From assembly GCA_015709205.1 (NCBI GenBank), contig JACCQO010000026.1, positions 1 through 45,006 on the forward strand: 45,006 nucleotides of DNA, written 5' to 3'. The notes beneath the pieces are model-generated. The model made no database searches and was not told the origin of the DNA. It saw only the letters and a program-made list of their open reading frames with translations. This document shows, piece after piece, positions 1 through 14,411 of the stretch. A program made the position numbers and the translations under genes. This stretch comes from Desulfovibrionaceae bacterium (lineage in GTDB: Bacteria; Desulfobacterota; Desulfovibrionia; Desulfovibrionales; Desulfovibrionaceae). Numbering within the stretch: the first letter of the stretch is position 1; every line of letters begins with the position of its first letter.

Positions 1-2272
1 CATTAGAATCGCCCCTACTTAAAAAAACTGTGTCCATGAAATCGGGGGCTTTACACAAACTCTTTTCGACTTCCTCCAGAACCCACTCAATATCCTCAAT
101 ATACCAGGTAAACGTATGGAAAAACTTTGCTGCGATGAACCCACCATCCTCCTTTGAGTTCACCCTTTCATTGATTGTTCGCATGTTATTGAAAACGACC
201 TTTCTGGCCGCCGCAGCCTCTTTCCCAGTCACGAGCGATACGATTGCCGCTTCCTCGTCGCGGGGTTCGTAGTCATGGAAAAAACTGATAATTGCACACA
301 ACTGTAAAATCCAATCCACCGACAATGCTCCGACCCCGATTTCAATCAATCGCCCGGCAACATAAATCAGTAATGAATATAAATGGCTACCTCGGTAGCG
401 GCCACTATTAAGAGCGCTTTCGATGTGGTGCAAATCAATCCGTAGAGTGAGTTCTTTCCCGAGGGCTTCCAAGCGTGCGGCATTTTCCATACGCTTAATC
501 GCGAACCCCGCCCATGATACAAAATCATGCGGCAGCGCCCCCGTTTGTTCGATGGTTACGCTGTCCACAATCTCCAAAAGTTGCCTTTCAGACATATGGA
601 GCGGATAGAGACACTCTACAGACACGCCGAGAAAGCGAGGGCTACACTCCAAATCCCCCATGATATGCGCGAGAACCTTTTGGAGTTCTTCGGCACCGGC
701 GATCACCCGCAATGTCCGCATGGCCGTGATCCGGAGTTCTTCAGCCACGGAGTCGTCCGAAAAAATATCCATGACTGCTCGGGAACACCCTGAAAGCCGA
801 GCGGCCTGGGCCACGTCAAGGCAAAGGTCCACCGAATCCTCGGGCAGCGTCCGATCCGCCAAAAGCTCGTCCAGCACGGGGACCAATTCCGGCGATCCAA
901 AGGAGGCCAGTCGGCTACGGTCAAACATTAATCCCGTGTTATTCCGGCCTGCGTACTTGCGCGCATGCGCACGAAGAATCTCGGCGCGTAGCTCAACAGG
1001 CAACTTTTGGGGATCGCCCATGTCCGGCAGCACCTCCGGCGCATGCTCGATGATATGGCGCAACAGCACCTCGCTATGCGGGGCCACCCATGCGGCGACG
1101 GCCGCAAGCGAAGGACGCAGCACCTGGTGGCCATAAACCCTAGCGAACAAGATGTCGCGGATAGCGCGCCAGTCTGCGCCCCTGGCATGACAATCACGTA
1201 GCCAGCAAGCGGCGAGGTATTCTTTCAACGTTCGCGTGTGGAACCCGACTCTACCGATAATCGGGGAGTCGAACATACCGGTGTGCAGCAGCGCCTGCAC
1301 CTCGGGAAGTTCCCAGCCCGTCAAAAGATCAAAGGGATTGAGGCCGCCTTCGTGCGCCCCCAGAGAGATCATGATATGCGGCTGCCCGCAGAGAATGGAC
1401 GCCGCCGCAAGCTTCTCTGCCCCCTGACGAAGTCTATCGGGCGGAGGGGCCTTGCCCTGGTAGGTAGGGTTGGCTTCGGACAGATGCCGCGCGACCATCT
1501 CTTCGACAAGCTCCGTCAGGTTGCCGATCCGTCCCACCCTCTTCCAATAGGCAAGCAGAGCCTCGACATCGCCCGGGCGACTCGCGAACTCCCAGGCCTT
1601 GGCCCTATCGAGCTCTGAAAAGAACACGGTGGAAACATCGGTCCCAACGGCTCGGGCGTAGAGGCGAATTCTGTGCTCGTCGAGCGGGCAGATGGTGAAG
1701 TAGGAGGGCTCGACTTCAGTACCCCCTTTTGACATGCGTGCGGCAAGGCGCAGGAGTGGCGGCTTGTCCTGCTCGTCGTCCCACGCCGACCTGCGGCAGG
1801 AAAGGCAGACCGTTACGCGCCCAAGGCGCTCAGCCTCCAAAACCATGGCAAGCCCGTCGAGCGCGCGACCGTATTTGCCTTGACGCAGCAGCTTCGATTC
1901 GTCCACCGCATCCAGCAAAAAAACGGCCGAAGAGGTCGAGCCCCACCAGGCTGCCAATCGGTCAAAATCACCTACAGCGAGAGCAAGAGCGTCGCGCGAG
2001 GGTTGAGCGCTCGCCAGTTCGTGCACTTCCGCAAAGAAAATGTCCTCTTGCCTTTCATGCCCACGCCGGATCCATTCCTTGAATTCCGTCGTCTTGCCGC
2101 TTCTGGCCTCGCCGAATACCACCGAGAGACGATTGTCCGTGAGCAGTCCGCCCAGATCGACACTACGGCCTTCACCCGTCATGGACTCGACTCTTTGCTC
2201 AACAGCGAAGTCTTCCTCTTTTTCCAAATCGGTAGCGTAGTACCGCCTATCCAACTCGATATATTTGCTCAT
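1..2272 (-). CDS. Large predicted NACHT/STAND-type P-loop NTPase (partial, C-terminus beyond left edge)
   Basis: The reading frame is open without a stop from position 2272 down to the window edge, giving 757 residues of a longer protein. Seen: Walker A GEARSGKT at residues 54-61, a Walker B-like VFLLDAVDE at 117-125, and an LSCRRSAW stretch near 157-164 that fits a sensor region. After about residue 270 the chain is long, helical-looking and repeat-like, as in STAND sensors. The order (short N-terminal lead, P-loop, Walker B, then a motif near residues 340-360 with HTRTLKEYLAACWL) matches a family of 1000-1500-residue predicted ATPases often found in defence islands; that match is from memory. 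No N-terminal effector domain is visible, so any effector would lie in the missing part or in a neighbour. An in-frame upstream ATG at 2302 is possible; neither start has a good ribosome site. Base composition near 1-600 is clearly more AT-rich than the rest of the window, which suggests transfer. Coding is well supported; the defence role is inferred. Confidence 0.8.
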   Translation of the reverse strand, partial: MSKYIELDRRYYATDLEKEEDFAVEQRVESMTGEGRSVDLGGLLTDNRLSVVFGEARSGKTTEFKEWIRRGHERQEDIFFAEVHELASAQPSRDALALAVGDFDRLAAWWGSTSSAVFLLDAVDESKLLRQGKYGRALDGLAMVLEAERLGRVTVCLSCRRSAWDDEQDKPPLLRLAARMSKGGTEVEPSYFTICPLDEHRIRLYARAVGTDVSTVFFSELDRAKAWEFASRPGDVEALLAYWKRVGRIGNLTELVEEMVARHLSEANPTYQGKAPPPDRLRQGAEKLAAASILCGQPHIMISLGAHEGGLNPFDLLTGWELPEVQALLHTGMFDSPIIGRVGFHTRTLKEYLAACWLRDCHARGADWRAIRDILFARVYGHQVLRPSLAAVAAWVAPHSEVLLRHIIEHAPEVLPDMGDPQKLPVELRAEILRAHARKYAGRNNTGLMFDRSRLASFGSPELVPVLDELLADRTLPEDSVDLCLDVAQAARLSGCSRAVMDIFSDDSVAEELRITAMRTLRVIAGAEELQKVLAHIMGDLECSPRFLGVSVECLYPLHMSERQLLEIVDSVTIEQTGALPHDFVSWAGFAIKRMENAARLEALGKELTLRIDLHHIESALNSGRYRGSHLYSLLIYVAGRLIEIGVGALSVDWILQLCAIISFFHDYEPRDEEAAIVSLVTGKEAAAARKVVFNNMRTINERVNSKEDGGFIAAKFFHTFTWYIEDIEWVLEEVEKSLCKAPDFMDTVFLSRGDSN

Positions 2273-2476
2273 GATCGCGCGCTCACATTTCGTCCGTGTC
2301 ATCAAATATAGCGCAATATACCAAACGGCCTGAAAAAAGTAGACTCAAATTTCCCCTCTTACGCCGATACCCAAGTCATCGCGCGCCCGCCAACGACTGA
2401 TGTCTTGTCCATGCCCCTTACTAGTTGCACACCCGGCTCGTACTTCCCCCTCCCGAAAAAACTCCCTCCCAAAGGG

Positions 2477-7883: not shown

Positions 7884-8306
7884 CGGCCCCCGCCCTTTGC
7901 GCGCCGCACGGGCCGCATCGCGCGACGCCGCGCCCCCGGCCGTCCGCCGGGGCCGTTCGGGGTCCTGGTTAACCCATGGGGGGTGCTCCGCCTGCCGTTC
8001 ATGAGCGCTCCACGGCCGACCCGGACGCCTCGCGCGCCGGGACAAGGCCCTTCGCCCGCCGCCCGAAGGACGGCGCTGCGCATTGCCGCGCGCCCCGGCC
8101 GAACGGCCGGGCAGCGCGAAATCACGGTATCAGATAGGGTATTTTCCGGGCCACGTACAGGGTTCGGCGCCCAGGTCGGCGAATTATCCCGGGAAATCGC
8201 CGCGAACGGAGTACGGCGGCGCACTCCGGGGCGTCCGAAAACCCTGCGGAGAACGGCGCGGGACGCCCGGGCGCAGGTCCACGCCGCAGGCGACGCACGG
8301 AACGGG
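7884..8306. other. 423-base intergenic region with no convincing gene
   Basis: This gap lies between the start of the PseG-like gene and the stop of the moeA-PBP gene, both on the minus strand. Open frames here are Arg/Pro/Gly-rich and without family features. Seen: a GC hairpin CCCGGCC-GAAC-GGCCGGG at 8094-8111 with no T run, and a slightly more AT-rich patch around 8120-8200 that could hold a minus-strand promoter. No clear -35/-10 pair was found. Confidence 0.5.
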
Positions 8307-10259
8307 CTACCCGTCGGCCAGGCCCATGCCCGGGGCCATGACGCGCCCCGTGAGCGTGGTCTCGTAGCCGCCCATGGCCCGGATCTCGGCCTGGAAATCC
8401 GGGCTGCGCACGATGCCGAGCAGGGCCGCCACGCGCGCGTCGGCCAGGGCCGCCGCGGGGATGATCAGGTCGTAGCGCTCGCGGGCCATGGGCACGAAGC
8501 CCAGCTCCAGGGCCGCGGCTGCGGACAGGATCCCCAGGCCGCAGTCCGCCGCGCCGGTCTTCACGTTCACGGCCACGCCCATGTGCGTGACCTCCTCGTC
8601 GCCGTAGCCGCGCACGGCCGAGGGATCGATGTGCGCCAGGGCCAGATGGTGATCCAGGAGGATGCGCGTGCCCGCGCCGCGCTGGCGGTTGACGAAGCGC
8701 ACGTCCGCGCGCGCCAGGTCGGCCACGCCCCGGATGGACTTGGGATTGGACGGGGCCACGATGAGCCCCTGGTGGCGGATGGCCAAGTTGATCACGGTCA
8801 CGTCCACGCCGGGCAGGTGCCGTTCCAGGAAGGGGAAATTGAAGTCGCCCGTGGCCGGGTCGAAAAGGTGGCAGCCCGCGAAGAGTGCGGTGCCCTGGGC
8901 CAGGGCCGCGAGCCCGCCCATGGACCCGACGTGGGCCGAGACCAGGACGAGCGGCGTCTCCAACCCCATGAGCCGGTCGGCGATGCGGTCCAGGGTGTTG
9001 TCGTGGCTGCCCACGTGCATGAGCACGCGCTCCACGTCCGACGGCGCGCCCAGCAGATCCACCTCGACGACCTCGCCCGCCTCGCGGCCCTCGAGGTTTT
9101 CCGGGATGCGCAGCACGGCCTGGGCGCGCGTGAGCGTGGTGATCATCCCCGCGCCGCGGCCCAGGGGCGCGCCGGAAAGCTCGCCGCCCACGCGGCCCAC
9201 GGCCAGGCGCACGCGCTCCTCCAGCCCCAGGCGCGAGGGCGTGCGCCGCGCCAGGCGCACCCGCGCGCGCGGCCGCTCCGGCGCAACGGTGTGCGCCAGC
9301 CACGCGGCCAGGGGCGCGACCACGTCCTCGTAGCAGACCACGGCGCTGACCGGGTAGCCCGGCGCGCCCACGAGCAGCCGCCCGCGCGCCGCGCCCACGA
9401 TGGTGGGCTTGCCGGGCATCACGCGGATGCCGTGAGCCAGGACGCGCCCCACGCGCTCGAACACGGCGCGCGAAAAGTCGCGGCTGCCCGCCGAGGAGCC
9501 CGCGCCCAGGACCACGATGTGCGCGCCCGCGTCCAGCGCCGCCTCCACGGCCGCGGCCAGGGCCTCGGGCTCGTCGGCCACCGGGGGCCCCGCGACCACC
9601 TCCACGCCCCAGGTCCAGCCCTTGGCCAGGGAGACGAGCACCTGGGAGTTGGACTCCACGGCCTCGCCGGGCGCGGGCGCGGGCCGGTCGCGGAAGTCCA
9701 GCACCTCGTCGCCCGAGGGGATGCAGTGGATGCGCACGCGCTCGCGGACCGCGACCTCCCAGATGCCCGCGGCCAGCAGCGCGCCCACGTCGTAGGGCGA
9801 AAGGCGGTGGTTGCGGGGCAGGAGCAGCTCCGTGGCCACGATGTCCTCGCCGATGCGGCGCACGTGGCTCCAGGGAAAGGCCGGGGCCTCGATGCACGCC
9901 GTGTCCGCGTCCACCTGCTCCACGTGCTCGACCATGATCACGGCGTCCATGCCGGGGGGCAACGGCTGGCCGGTGTTCACGGGCTCGTAGTCCGCGCCCC
10001 GGCGCAGGGCCAGGGGCCGCCCCGCGCGCGCGGCAAAGGTCGTTGCGGCGCGCACGGCGATGCCGTCCATGGCCGCGGCGTGAAAGGTGGGCGAGGAGTA
10101 GCGCGCAAAGACCGGCGCGGCCGTGACGCGGCCCGCGGCCTCGTGCGCCGGCACGGTCTCCACGCCCAGGATCGCGGCGCGGTCCACCGCGCCCTTGGCC
10201 AGGTCCAGGGCCTCGGCCAGGGCCACGGTCCTCAGGTAGATGTTGCGGTCCTCGCTCAT
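8307..10259 (-). CDS. moeA: MoeA-type molybdenumtransferase fused to a C-terminal periplasmic-binding-like domain
   Basis: 650 residues. Residues 1 to about 410 are MoeA, the enzyme that inserts molybdate or tungstate into adenylated molybdopterin: AMDGIAVR near 62-69, NTGQPLPPGMDAVIMVEH near 93-110, IPSGDEVL, LGAGSSAGSRDFSRAV, and PGKPTIVGAARG. Residues about 430-650 are the PBP-like domain found on some MoeA and ModE relatives: SAHVGSMGGLAAL, the RHQGLIVAPSNPKSI stretch, VNRQRGAGTRILLDHHLAL, and GAADCGLGI. The PBP half probably binds an oxyanion or related ligand; this is inferred. A second, single-domain MoeA is encoded just upstream, so this copy may be specialised, for example for tungsten versus molybdenum. 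The gap to that gene is 79 bases, consistent with one transcript. GAGGAG lies very close to the ATG. Confidence 0.92.
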   Translation of the reverse strand: MSEDRNIYLRTVALAEALDLAKGAVDRAAILGVETVPAHEAAGRVTAAPVFARYSSPTFHAAAMDGIAVRAATTFAARAGRPLALRRGADYEPVNTGQPLPPGMDAVIMVEHVEQVDADTACIEAPAFPWSHVRRIGEDIVATELLLPRNHRLSPYDVGALLAAGIWEVAVRERVRIHCIPSGDEVLDFRDRPAPAPGEAVESNSQVLVSLAKGWTWGVEVVAGPPVADEPEALAAAVEAALDAGAHIVVLGAGSSAGSRDFSRAVFERVGRVLAHGIRVMPGKPTIVGAARGRLLVGAPGYPVSAVVCYEDVVAPLAAWLAHTVAPERPRARVRLARRTPSRLGLEERVRLAVGRVGGELSGAPLGRGAGMITTLTRAQAVLRIPENLEGREAGEVVEVDLLGAPSDVERVLMHVGSHDNTLDRIADRLMGLETPLVLVSAHVGSMGGLAALAQGTALFAGCHLFDPATGDFNFPFLERHLPGVDVTVINLAIRHQGLIVAPSNPKSIRGVADLARADVRFVNRQRGAGTRILLDHHLALAHIDPSAVRGYGDEEVTHMGVAVNVKTGAADCGLGILSAAAALELGFVPMARERYDLIIPAAALADARVAALLGIVRSPDFQAEIRAMGGYETTLTGRVMAPGMGLADG

Positions 10260-10338
10260 GCGCTCCTCGGCTCGCCCTATCGGGATTGCGGTACGGCGGC
10301 CCCGGTGGGCCGCCCCGGTCGTGAAACGCGCGCCCCGG

Positions 10339-11610
10339 TCACAGGAGCAGCACGTCCACCTCCTGGCCCGCGTACGCGCCCTCGTCCCCCGCCGGGATCA
10401 CGGCCAGCCCGTCGGCGGCCACCAGGGTGCGCAGCAGGCCCGAGGGGCCGGGCAGCGGATGCGCCAGAGGCAGGCCGCCGGGCCGCGCTTCCAGGCGCAC
10501 GCGCACGAATTCCTCGCGGCCCTGGCGCGCGGCGGCGTTGCGCGCCAGCACGGCGCGCAGTTCGGGCCGCGCCCCGTGCTCCAGCGCACCGGCCTCGCCG
10601 CCCAGGTGGCGCAGCAGGGGCACGCCCAGCACGCGCATGACCACCAGGGCCGCGCCGACCTGGCCGGGCAGGCCGAGCACGGGCCTGTCCCCGCGCCGGG
10701 CCAGGATCGCGGGCTTGCCCGGGGACATGCTCACGCCGTGGACCAGGATCTCCGCGTCCGCGAACCCCTCCAGCGCGCGCACCGCGAGGTCGCGCGCGCC
10801 CACGGAGCTGCCGCCCGAGAGCAGCACCGCGTCGCACTCGCGCCAGGCCGCGTCCAGGGTTTCGGCCAGGGCCTCGCGGTCGTCGCGCACGATGCCGAAG
10901 GACACGGGCTCGGCCCCGGCGCGCCGGGCCAGGAGCGCGACGGTCAGGGAGTTGACGTCGCGCACGCGGCCCGGCTCGGGCGGCGCGCCGCGCGGGGTCA
11001 GCTCGTCGCCCGTGGAGAGCACGGCCACGCGCGGCCGGGCGGCCGCGAGCACGGATTCCCGGCCCAGCGCGGCCAGGAGCCCGGCGTCGGCCACGCGCAG
11101 CCGCCGCCCGGCGGGCACGGCCAGCGCGCCCTCGGCCAGGTCCTCGCCGCGCTCCATGACGTTTTCGCCCGGGGCCACGGCCCGGCGCACCTCGATGGTG
11201 CCCGCGGGCCCGCCGGTTCCCGCAATGCCCCTGACCAGCTCCCCGGTGTGCTCGACCATGACCACGGCGTCGGCCCCGGCGGGCAGGCAACCGCCCGTGG
11301 GGATGCGCGCGCAGCGCCCCGGAGTCAGGGAAAAGGCCGGAAACCCGCTCACGCCGACGGCCCCCGCGCACTCCAGGTACTGCGGCTCGGCCTCGGCGGC
11401 CCCGAAGGTATCCGCCGCGCGCACCGCGAAGCCGTCCATGGAAGAGCGCGCGGCCAGGGGCAGGGCCTCGGGCCCGCGCACGTCCTCCGCGGCCACGCGG
11501 CCCACGCACTCCTCCAGCCCGACCCGCTCCGCGCCCGCCACGGGCGCGAACCCCGCGGCCAGCTCCAGCACGCGCGCGCGGCCCACCACGCGGAAAAAGC
11601 CGCCCTGCAT
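10339..11610 (-). CDS. moeA: Molybdopterin molybdenumtransferase MoeA (single-domain copy)
   Basis: 423 residues, the normal MoeA length. Seen: SSMDGFAVRAADTFG near 56-70, PTGGCLPAGADAVVMVEHT near 102-120, the LSTGDELTPRG loop, RDVNSLTVALLARR, LSGGSSVGARDLAVRAL, and PGKPAILARRGDRPVLGLPG, covering the four MoeA subdomains in order. It ligates molybdate or tungstate to the pterin dithiolene in the cytoplasm. Its ATG overlaps the stop of the upstream mobB gene by one base (TGATG), so the two are translationally coupled. The downstream gene encodes a second MoeA with a PBP domain. Confidence 0.95.
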   Translation of the reverse strand: MQGGFFRVVGRARVLELAAGFAPVAGAERVGLEECVGRVAAEDVRGPEALPLAARSSMDGFAVRAADTFGAAEAEPQYLECAGAVGVSGFPAFSLTPGRCARIPTGGCLPAGADAVVMVEHTGELVRGIAGTGGPAGTIEVRRAVAPGENVMERGEDLAEGALAVPAGRRLRVADAGLLAALGRESVLAAARPRVAVLSTGDELTPRGAPPEPGRVRDVNSLTVALLARRAGAEPVSFGIVRDDREALAETLDAAWRECDAVLLSGGSSVGARDLAVRALEGFADAEILVHGVSMSPGKPAILARRGDRPVLGLPGQVGAALVVMRVLGVPLLRHLGGEAGALEHGARPELRAVLARNAAARQGREEFVRVRLEARPGGLPLAHPLPGPSGLLRTLVAADGLAVIPAGDEGAYAGQEVDVLLL

Positions 11611-12320
11611 CAGCCGTCCAGCTCAATGCGCACCGGCCCGGGCTCGAACCCCTTGAGTTCGCCGAGCATGCCCAGGATGGTCGCGCGGATGATGCGCTCG
11701 ACAAAGGGATTGGCGGCGATGGCCCGGCCGTTGGCCGTGATGCGCAGCGCGGCGCCCGACGTGGGACAGTCGCCGGGCGCGGCGCGGCCGGCCACGATGT
11801 CCGCGGCCATGGCCCGGCAGTCGTCGCGGCCGCAGGCCCCGCAGTCCAGCCCCGGCAGCAGGAACCCGCGCTCGGCCGCCAGCGCGGCCAGCGCGTCCGG
11901 GTCCTCCACGCGCGGCACGCCGGGCAGGTCGCAGCCCACGGTCGCCAGGGCCAGCTCGGGGGCCAGGTCCCCGGGCCCGCCGTCGCCCGCGCCCTCGGCG
12001 CTGCCCATAATGATGCGCGGCGCCACGAACCGGTCGCGGCCGCCCTCGACGACCACGACGTCCGCACCCAGGAGCGGCGCGAGCACGTCCAGCCCGCGCT
12101 CGCGCGGCCAGGCCGCGAAGGTCTCCTCCGGGCCCACCCCGCAGACGCAGGCGCAGTGCTCCATGTAGCGCGCCGTGTCGCGGTCCGCGCGGTCGAACCC
12201 GTGCGAGGCGTGCTTCACGGCCGCGACGCGCAGCCCGCGCCGCGCCAGAGCCTCGACCAGGGCCAGGCCCAGGGTGGTCTTGCCCGATTTCTTCCAGCCG
12301 ACGATGGCGATGGCCCGCAT
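11610..12320 (-). CDS. mobB: MobB-type GTPase with an appended Fe-S (PF04060-like) and C-terminal extension
   Basis: 236 residues. The N-terminal two-thirds is MobB: AIVGWKKSGKTTLGLALVEAL (Walker A, residues 4-24), KHASHGFDRADRDTARY near 47-63 and VVVEGGRDRFVAPRI near 95-109. MobB binds GTP and helps late molybdenum cofactor steps such as guanine dinucleotide attachment. After it comes LPGLDCGACGRDDCRAMA followed by APGDCP, a CxxCxxxxC...C pattern like the PF04060 4Fe-4S domain of RnfB and corrinoid proteins. This addition is not in classical MobB of about 170 residues. The start at 12320 has AAGGAG 6 bases upstream; an in-frame ATG at 12368 would add 16 residues before the Walker strand. It overlaps moeA by one base. 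Confidence 0.88.
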   Translation of the reverse strand: MRAIAIVGWKKSGKTTLGLALVEALARRGLRVAAVKHASHGFDRADRDTARYMEHCACVCGVGPEETFAAWPRERGLDVLAPLLGADVVVVEGGRDRFVAPRIIMGSAEGAGDGGPGDLAPELALATVGCDLPGVPRVEDPDALAALAAERGFLLPGLDCGACGRDDCRAMAADIVAGRAAPGDCPTSGAALRITANGRAIAANPFVERIIRATILGMLGELKGFEPGPVRIELDG

Positions 12321-12372
12321 GGCTTCTCCTTGTTTCGGGTTGCGGCGCACGGTGCCCACGACGCGCAAGGCG

Positions 12373-13299
12373 CTAGGCCGCGCAGTCCGCCGGGTCGCCC
12401 TGGAGCTTGTCCAGGGCGTGCTCCACCGCGGGCAGCACGGCCACCAGGTTCTCGGCCACGGCCTTGGGGCTGCCCGGCAGGGCCACGAGGATGGACCCGC
12501 CCACGGTGCCCGCCACGGCGCGGGAGATGGCCGCGCGCGGGGTCTTGGCCAACGAGGCGGCCATCATGGCCTGCTCGAAGCCCGGCAGCCGCCGCTCCAG
12601 GAGCGGGGCCACGGCCTCGGGCGTGCCGTCGCGCGGGGCCAGCCCGGTGCCGCCCGTGGTCACAATGAGGTCGAAGCCCTCCACCCAGGCCAGGCGCGCC
12701 ACCAGCGCGCGCAGGGCCGCGGGCTCGTCGGGCAGCAGGAAGCCGCGCGCCAGGCTCACGGCGATGTCCTTGCGGCAGGCGGCCTCCACGGCCGGGCCGC
12801 TCTTGTCCGCGCGCAGCCCGGCCGCGCCCTTGTCCGAAAGCGTGATCCAGGCCACGCTGACCCCGGCGCGCCACAGCTCCAGGCCGAAGCGCCCGGCGGA
12901 AAGCTCCACGCGGTCCAGGGCACGCAGCACGGGCCAGCGCGATGCGCCCGCGCACGGGCCCGCGCCCTGGTCGGTGGCCTGGTCGGCGGCCGCGTCGAAG
13001 GGCGCGGGACCGGTCCCGCCCGGCGCGCACGGGGCCAGGAGCACGCCCTCCACCTGCAGGAGCGCGTCCCGCGCGGCCGGGGTCTTGTCCTCGGGTCCGG
13101 CGAGGTCCGCCGCGCCCAGGTACATGCCCGCGCGCGCCACCGGTCCGGCCGGACCGGGTCCACCGTGACCGGACCCGCCGTGGCCGGGACGAACGACCAG
13201 GAACGGCCCGGCCCAGGCCCACGGCCGCCCGGGTCCCAGGGCCACGCCCTGGCCCTTTTCCAGCACCAACGGCTCGTTCAACTCCACATCCAGTCGCAT
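12373..13299 (-). CDS. mogA: MogA/MoaB-type molybdopterin adenylyltransferase with an unidentified N-terminal domain
   Basis: 308 residues. Residues about 145-300 are the MogA/MoaB domain that adenylates molybdopterin: [13 protein letters not shown] near 146-158, [21 protein letters not shown] (the GGTG loop and following), and [27 protein letters not shown]. Residues 1-140 form a separate part rich in Gly, Pro and Ala that starts [22 protein letters not shown] do not recognise it, and it might be a diverged MOSC-like or beta-barrel domain. The start is supported by GAGGTG about 6 bases upstream. It lies 52 bases upstream of mobB on the same strand and is divergent from moaC. Confidence 0.85.
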
Positions 13300-13544
13300 G
13301 CCTGCACCTCGCTCGGTCTGCCGGGCGGTCGCGGCGCGCAGCGCGCCGCAAGGGCCCGTGGACTAGGGGGACGTCCGCCACGCCGGCCGCATCGGCCGCA
13401 CCGGGCGCACCGGGCGTGCCGGGCCCGACGGTTGCCGGGACGGGCCGCACGCGTGTACACTCGGCCGCGCGGCCCGCGGACGCAATCCGCCTTCCCGGCG
13501 GAACGGCCAAAAGGCCTTCAAAAAGAATCCCAAAAAGGACCCAC

Positions 13545-14024
13545 ATGGACGAAAAACTCACGCACATCACGGACGAGGGCCGCCCGCGCATGGTCGACGT
13601 GGGCGCCAAGGCCGACACGCAACGCCGCGCCGTGGCGCGCTGCACCGTGCGCCTGGCCCCGCGCACCTTCGGGCTGCTCACGCGCGGCGAACTGCCCAAG
13701 GGCGACGCCTTCACCGTGGCCCAGGTGGCGGGCATCCAGGCCGCCAAGCGCACCCACGAGCTCATTCCCCTGTGCCACCCGCTCTTCCTGCGCTTCGTGG
13801 ACGTGACCTTTGCGGCCGACGCGGCCGGGCACGCCATCCACGTCACGGGCGAGGCCCGCACCGAGGGCAAGACCGGCGTGGAAATGGAGGCCCTGGTGGC
13901 CGCGCAGGTGGCCGCCCTGGCCATCTACGACATGTGCAAGGCCGTGCAGAAGGACATCGTGATCACCGACTGCCGACTGGTGCACAAGAGCGGCGGCAAG
14001 AGCGGGACGTTCGAGGCCGAGTGA
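13545..14024 (+). CDS. moaC: Cyclic pyranopterin monophosphate synthase MoaC
   Basis: 159 residues, the standard length. Seen: [18 protein letters not shown] near residues 16-33, [28 protein letters not shown] near 52-79 (the active-site stretch, with the conserved KRT and CHPL), [15 protein letters not shown] near 106-120, and [13 protein letters not shown] near 126-138, then an HKSGGKSG tail. MoaC turns the MoaA product into cyclic pyranopterin monophosphate. moaA is not in the window. An AAGGAC site lies 6 bases before the ATG. The gene is divergent from the mogA-type gene across 245 bases and runs into the moaE-like gene tail to tail, 15 bases apart. Confidence 0.97.
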
Positions 14025-14039
14025 GCCCCGCCGCCGGCG

Positions 14040-14411
14040 CTAGTCCGCGCCGGCCAGTTCCTCGCGCTTGGCCACGGCCTCGGACTTGATGCGGTCCAGC
14101 AGCTCGGCCAGTGCGGCCTTGACGTTTTCGCGGATGTCGCCCGCGACCACGATCCAGAGCAGGTCGTCGCCGGGTTCGAGAACCCCGCCGCGCGCCTCGG
14201 CCAGGGCGCGGAAGATGCCCGGCCGCGCCGAATACTCGGCGCAGAGCTCGGCGATGCGCGCGTGGTCCGGGCGCACGTCCACGCGCGCCACGGGTTCGCC
14301 CGTGCCGCGCCGGGTGCCGCGCACCACGCCGTTGTGCACCAGAATCATGCCCACCTTTTCCGCAAAGCCGGGCTCGGCCTTGAGCGCGGCGATGGTCGCA
14401 TCGATGTCCAT
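14040..14411 (-). CDS. MoaE-like molybdopterin synthase catalytic subunit homologue
   Basis: A 123-residue protein. VGMILVHNGVVRGTRRGT near residues 20-37 corresponds to the MoaE hairpin with the conserved HxGxVR, and the C-terminal LLDRIKSEAVAKREEL resembles the MoaE end where an IKxxxPIWKxE motif normally carries the catalytic lysine. Here the W is missing and the spacing differs, so the protein is a divergent MoaE or a relative that has lost synthase activity. No moaD is adjacent. AAGGAG lies 10 bases before the ATG. It sits between moaC (convergent) and tupA on the same strand, which keeps it in the cofactor locus. Confidence 0.72.
   Translation of the reverse strand: MDIDATIAALKAEPGFAEKVGMILVHNGVVRGTRRGTGEPVARVDVRPDHARIAELCAEYSARPGIFRALAEARGGVLEPGDDLLWIVVAGDIRENVKAALAELLDRIKSEAVAKREELAGAD

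Follow-up and report, generated by a model that had tools for sequence, protein, structure and literature searches.

A NACHT frame at a contig edge of a Desulfovibrionaceae genome: front half of a probably interrupted, divergent relative of the antiphage protein HyoA

The analysed stretch of DNA (hereafter the window) had a length of 45006 bases and corresponded to the entire contig C13 of genome G000, an assembly of 120 contigs. At its left edge, we found a minus-strand open reading frame at positions 2–2305, which had 768 codons when counted from a TTG and 757 codons when started at the ATG at 2272 (2–2272). Because the window was the whole contig, the frame was truncated by the contig end. 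Its G+C content was 0.569 (59–2272), compared with 0.701 for the window from position 2501 onward. The frame contained a Walker A motif and a Walker B motif with the D-x-x-D-E continuation, the motif pair of NACHT/STAND NTPases (Table 1). In the alignment of relatives described below, the P-loop lysine and threonine were present in 79 and 77 of 80 rows, respectively, and the Walker B residues D, D, and E in 80, 79, and 80 of 80 rows. A sequence-only reading of this DNA had described the 757-codon frame, both Walker motifs and the lower G+C, and all of these were confirmed, as was its view that an N-terminal effector is absent, the P-loop being reached already at residue 54.

Table 1 Coordinates of the features of the HyoA-like gene (window positions unless a contig is named).
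Feature	Position	Strand	Basis or remark
HyoA-like NACHT protein, N-terminal half (739 codons)	56..2272	-	NF058534 match; from ATG 2272 to the probable insertion point
Walker A / P-loop, GEARSGKT	2090..2113	-	residue 54 from ATG 2272; window coordinates derived by hand
Walker B with the acidic residues after it, LLDAVDE	1898..1918	-	residue 119 from ATG 2272; coordinates derived by hand
55 family-foreign bases, probably one end of an IS3-like element	1..55	.	outside the HyoA match; inference
HyoA-like C-terminal half	G000:C73:12013-13957	-	HyoA model 760-1429, 363.6 bits

The N-terminal half matched the NCBIfam model NF058534, named 'NACHT domain-containing antiphage protein' HyoA, with residues 18–748 of the 768-codon frame aligned to model positions 1–757 of 1430 (437.5 bits). 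With an E-value of 1.1e-130 for this match, the left-edge frame is, judged by its sequence, genuine coding sequence and not a chance frame. The second-best model was EruA (NF058535), matched at positions 68–672 (E 4.8e-27, 94.6 bits). For this part of the protein, Pfam returned only weak generic AAA matches (E 0.16 and 0.19), and the Pfam NACHT model PF05729 gave no match to the window protein; the relative P0006 scored 17.7 bits against this model, compared with a gathering cut-off of 26.7. No PADLOC family was matched in either half of the gene. A literature search covering few subscription papers found no reports of HyoA or EruA as antiphage proteins.

The contigs of the same genome were searched with two full-length plasmid relatives as queries, and exactly one N-terminal and one C-terminal half were found, each at a contig end. 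The C-terminal half was located on contig C73, in a minus-strand frame of 665 codons (12013–14010) running off the 14012-base contig. The two halves covered the 1430 positions of the HyoA model nearly end to end, with a gap of two positions; the C half also matched EruA at model positions 1056–1268 (E 8e-08, 30.9 bits). We consider the two frames to be, in all likelihood, halves of a single gene encoding approximately 1,400 residues. The curated whole-protein cut-off of HyoA, 1200 bits, was not reached, as the halves, each scored apart, summed to 801.1 bits, and the window copy is hence a divergent relative rather than a filed HyoA member; 11 relatives scored 1230–1723.6 bits against the same model. 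Mean identity to the 80 aligned rows was 22–23%, with best values of 29% for the N half and 27% for the C half. All twelve motif residues tested in the two halves were kept. Of the strongly conserved positions of the alignment (at least 90% one residue), 111 out of 188 were retained, so the signal sensed by the window protein may differ from that of its relatives. On profile evidence, the window gene is thus real and belongs, as a divergent member, to an already known type of immune protein, in support of the NACHT/STAND-type anti-phage assignment made from the sequence alone.

Within the C-terminal domain, residues E71, D81, E96, K98, Q115, and Y120 did not vary across 50 relatives, which had been selected by length out of 73, and all six were kept in the C half of this genome and in 75–77 of the 80 alignment rows. 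The C half thereby carries the D..ExK active-site pattern, as part of an E..D..ExK..Q..Y tail that we take to be that of a PD-(D/E)XK nuclease with a Q..Y motif. Pfam nuclease models matched this domain neither in the 50 relatives nor in the C half of this genome, and no credible match to it was obtained among solved structures. We read the tail as a PD-(D/E)XK-type nuclease, the predicted effector of the window gene. Structure matches to alpha-repeat proteins were compatible with a helical-repeat middle part, but were largely to designed proteins. Matches to stomatin and ETS factors were judged to be due to chance. Of the two signalling routes offered by the sequence-only reading, a C-terminal effector is favoured by the nuclease-like tail, and a partner gene to the left was not seen.

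Extension to the left, as that reading had advised, led along C73 through the rest of the gene to a tRNA-Arg (11853–11929), which lay 83 bases from the stop of the HyoA-like gene, and then to a folC-like gene, whose Mur-ligase match was weak and under the cut-off, and selA (504 bits, Pfam). On the window side, the frame was followed to the right by TetR and MFS genes (Pfam). The earlier proposal that the frame marks the edge of a defence island did not hold for these four nearest flanking genes, none of which is a defence gene; the Pfam scan was confined to them and, in the window, to about the first 6 kb. Of 120 genomes from the family Desulfovibrionaceae, 119 gave a match to a folC–tRNA-Arg query, mostly via the tRNA. 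In 18 stretches from the same family (L066–L083), chosen because folC and tRNA-Arg lie close together, the 3' side of the tRNA varied by eye among stretches and genera, with AT-richer genes in several of them. The TetR, MFS, and HlyD-like proteins of the window had no match in these 18 stretches, and an empty site was not recovered. No duplicated tRNA end that could serve as an attachment site was found on the window side, the best candidate having 3 mismatches in 14. The 3' side of the tRNA-Arg is a possible integration site.

The junction between the two halves pointed to an interruption of the gene. The HyoA match stops ~20 residues before the end of the N half and leaves out 19 residues at the start of the C half, and these overhangs fell partly on the same family columns. 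A 4-base direct repeat was present at both junctions and, counted from it, approximately 55 bases at each contig end were foreign to the family. Read from the gene towards the gap, the C13 and C73 ends both begin with TG and carry ATGGACACA at nearly equal distance. The C73 tail opens a frame with M-Q-R-R, which resembles the starts of IS3 OrfA proteins. Around position 138041 of contig C15 (L033), the same genome carries what appears to be a complete IS3-like element, with two transposase frames and an end layout resembling that of the C13 and C73 ends. Based on these foreign, IS3-like ends and the 4-base repeat, an insertion element probably splits the HyoA-like gene between C13 and C73, and the window copy is probably silenced in this genome. 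The sequence-only reading had not foreseen an interruption.

The end-alignment statistics for the insertion were modest, partly negative, and weak taken alone. In an ungapped test of inverted ends, the score was reached in 80 of 500 shuffles, and in a local alignment of the inverted C13 and C73 ends in 209 of 2000. Local alignment with the C15 element gave 456/2000 and 153/2000 for the C13 end, and 68/2000 and 60/2000 for the C73 end. For an anchored end alignment, 21 of 5000 shuffles reached the observed score, but so did 417 of 5000 pairs drawn at random from the GC-rich contigs. Neither end sequence occurred elsewhere in the assembly at up to 2 mismatches, and the contigs with the genome's three integrase-core (rve) matches did not bear these ends. 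With up to 3 mismatches allowed, the C13 end was not recovered from 297 other Desulfovibrionales genomes; the plasmid search produced a single match to it, at chance level, and no match to the C73 end.

The lack of further copies of either end in the assembly and of rve matches on contigs with these ends, together with the mere two model positions missing between the halves, would suit an intact gene whose parts on C13 and C73 are separated by nothing but an assembly gap. We regard that as unlikely, given the foreign bases at each end, which overlap on the same family columns, and the shared TG starts, internal motif and direct repeat, even if the latter resemblance is weak alone. A different account of the two contigs, that they hold two separate decayed copies brought to contig ends by coincidence, draws on the fact that no contig covers the junction; it appears highly improbable in view of the complementary model coverage, the presence of just one of each half and the matching 4-base repeat.

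That the frame might belong to a housekeeping AAA+ ATPase or regulator with no defence role could be argued from the weak generic AAA matches, which are all that Pfam gave for the N half. The strength of the HyoA match, the low G+C, the 59 plasmid records and the occurrence in few genomes (see below) argue against it so clearly that we give it scarcely any weight. Just as remote is a classic Avs-like system with a separate effector gene to the left: an overlapping partner gene is indeed found in three relatives (L156, L157, and L158), but here a nuclease-like tail is part of the C half itself, beyond which lie tRNA-Arg, folC-like gene and selA, and PADLOC recognized neither half.

Our preferred reading remains that the window frame encodes the first half of a NACHT–sensor–nuclease immune protein made by a single gene, with an IS3-like element between the halves. 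Jointly with the order of parts and the mechanism outlined here, and judged by sequence and by analogy, we put its probability at roughly 78%. In the predicted order, the protein opens directly with the NACHT NTPase, continues with a long, repeat-like middle part and closes with a nuclease domain of PD-(D/E)XK type. By comparison with the family and with other NACHT proteins, the middle part would sense a phage-made signal, upon which the NACHT domain would bind ATP and oligomerise. The oligomer would switch on the C-terminal nuclease, which would cut DNA, so that the infected cell would no longer feed the phage. With the IS3-like element between its halves, the copy of this genome would probably be off.

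Relatives of the gene were distributed patchily. Among the 298 Desulfovibrionales genomes sampled, 8, including this one, contained a match to the N half, a patchy presence that fits the sequence-only reading, which had named uniform presence among close relatives as speaking against a defence role. It also matched 59 plasmid records, 22 of them from Burkholderia, and full-length relatives on four named plasmids had 1,425–1,468 residues; an intact copy is carried by a Niveispirillum plasmid. Two phage records, both of Acinetobacter phages (CAKLQH020000024.1 and CAKLQF020000015.1), contained a related NACHT gene. On genome contigs, relatives were encoded in 262 of 297 pattern stretches, and the best 80 of these 262 were kept as loci. 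The 80-row alignment used throughout comprised 73 of the loci (frame of at least 1340 residues; 7 of the 80 were left out), four plasmid proteins and three further genome proteins; one included row, L156, was a mis-picked helicase.

Among these best 80 of 262 loci, no neighbour within 5 kb recurred in more than 4, and the HyoA-like gene thus seems to be a lone worker as a rule. In a PADLOC scan at E 1e-8, 129 proteins from the nearest ORFs of the loci matched 260 model families, compared with 52 families for 98 proteins from distant ORFs of these loci, a contrast that is suggestive only, as redundant models and not genes were counted. In L088 (9778–10716), L112, and L115, a DUF3800 gene, identified by Pfam in L088, begins ~3 bases after the HyoA-type gene and is a possible accessory gene.

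The nuclease pattern was present in the picked frame of 68 of the same best 80 loci. In four loci (L094, L101, L106, and L140), the frame was broken but the nuclease part or the tail of the family could still be recognized, and in three (L096, L145, and L162) the frame stopped at or near a contig end. The pattern was absent in L118, L119, L156, L157, and L158; of these, L118, L156, and L157 exceeded the HyoA cut-off. In L118 (3125–7678), the HyoA model was matched to its end, the ExK was gone and, by eye and by hydropathy, hydrophobic stretches came last, which makes this tail a possible membrane effector. In the Rhizobium loci L156 and L158 (6712–7899 and 7896–11615), the ATG of a nuclease-less NACHT gene shares an ATGA overlap with the stop codon of a Fic gene lying upstream, and the Fic protein is a possible effector. 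In L157 (Pseudomonas; 7992–11816 and 11776–14118), the end of the nuclease-less NACHT gene is overlapped by a gene for an AAA_21 PtuA-like ATPase with two CxxC pairs, which scored 97.3 of the 500 bits required for PtuA and is thus below cut-off. L119 (7122–11045) was nuclease-less with no evident partner, and by eye it was followed by ribosomal-protein and GTPase-like frames. Likewise, a fifth relative on a plasmid, that of Burkholderia glumae, had no nuclease tail and no clear replacement, and a transposase gene came after it. The replacement of the nuclease by a hydrophobic tail or by an overlapping Fic or PtuA-like gene in four loci supports a C-terminal effector module. There is perhaps an even chance that the HyoA-like proteins form an inverted NLR platform, with a fixed NACHT switch and sensor and an exchangeable C-terminal output, of which the window copy would be a divergent, probably IS-silenced branch. 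Being probably broken, the window copy itself matters little, and the effector exchange among its relatives is the more interesting part.

Compared with known systems, the window gene is closest to HyoA, with which it shares the order of parts and the motif residues; it differs in its subthreshold score, its best identities of 27–29% and its probable interruption. EruA, likewise named 'NACHT domain-containing antiphage protein' by NCBIfam, is far weaker as a match (94.6 + 30.9 bits vs a cut-off of 1000). Avs/AVAST STAND NTPases similarly have an NTPase followed by a long repeat-like part, whereas the window gene has no N-terminal effector and no PADLOC match. According to the excerpted text of PMC13092281, the new systems validated with DefensePredictor include ones with NACHT domains and ones with PD-(D/E)XK domains, but only 1 of 24 units picked through remote homology alone was protective; homology alone is hence a weak guide to defence function. 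The portion of PMC12169576 consulted describes bacterial NACHT proteins with a C-terminal sensor and an N-terminal effector, among them bNACHT25, which degrades DNA on infection through an N-terminal PD-(D/E)XK domain. The window gene resembles bNACHT25 and bNACHT32, as described there, in combining a NACHT switch with a predicted DNase effector of PD-(D/E)XK type, but the nuclease is N-terminal in those proteins, whereas here the NACHT domain comes first and the nuclease-like part last. The HyoA-like genes would thus represent a NACHT family that is widespread and carries its effector at the end opposite to that of the proteins in this part of PMC12169576, and its relatives, pointing to natural effector exchange at the C-terminal end, raise the question of whether one sensor core can drive different killing outputs.
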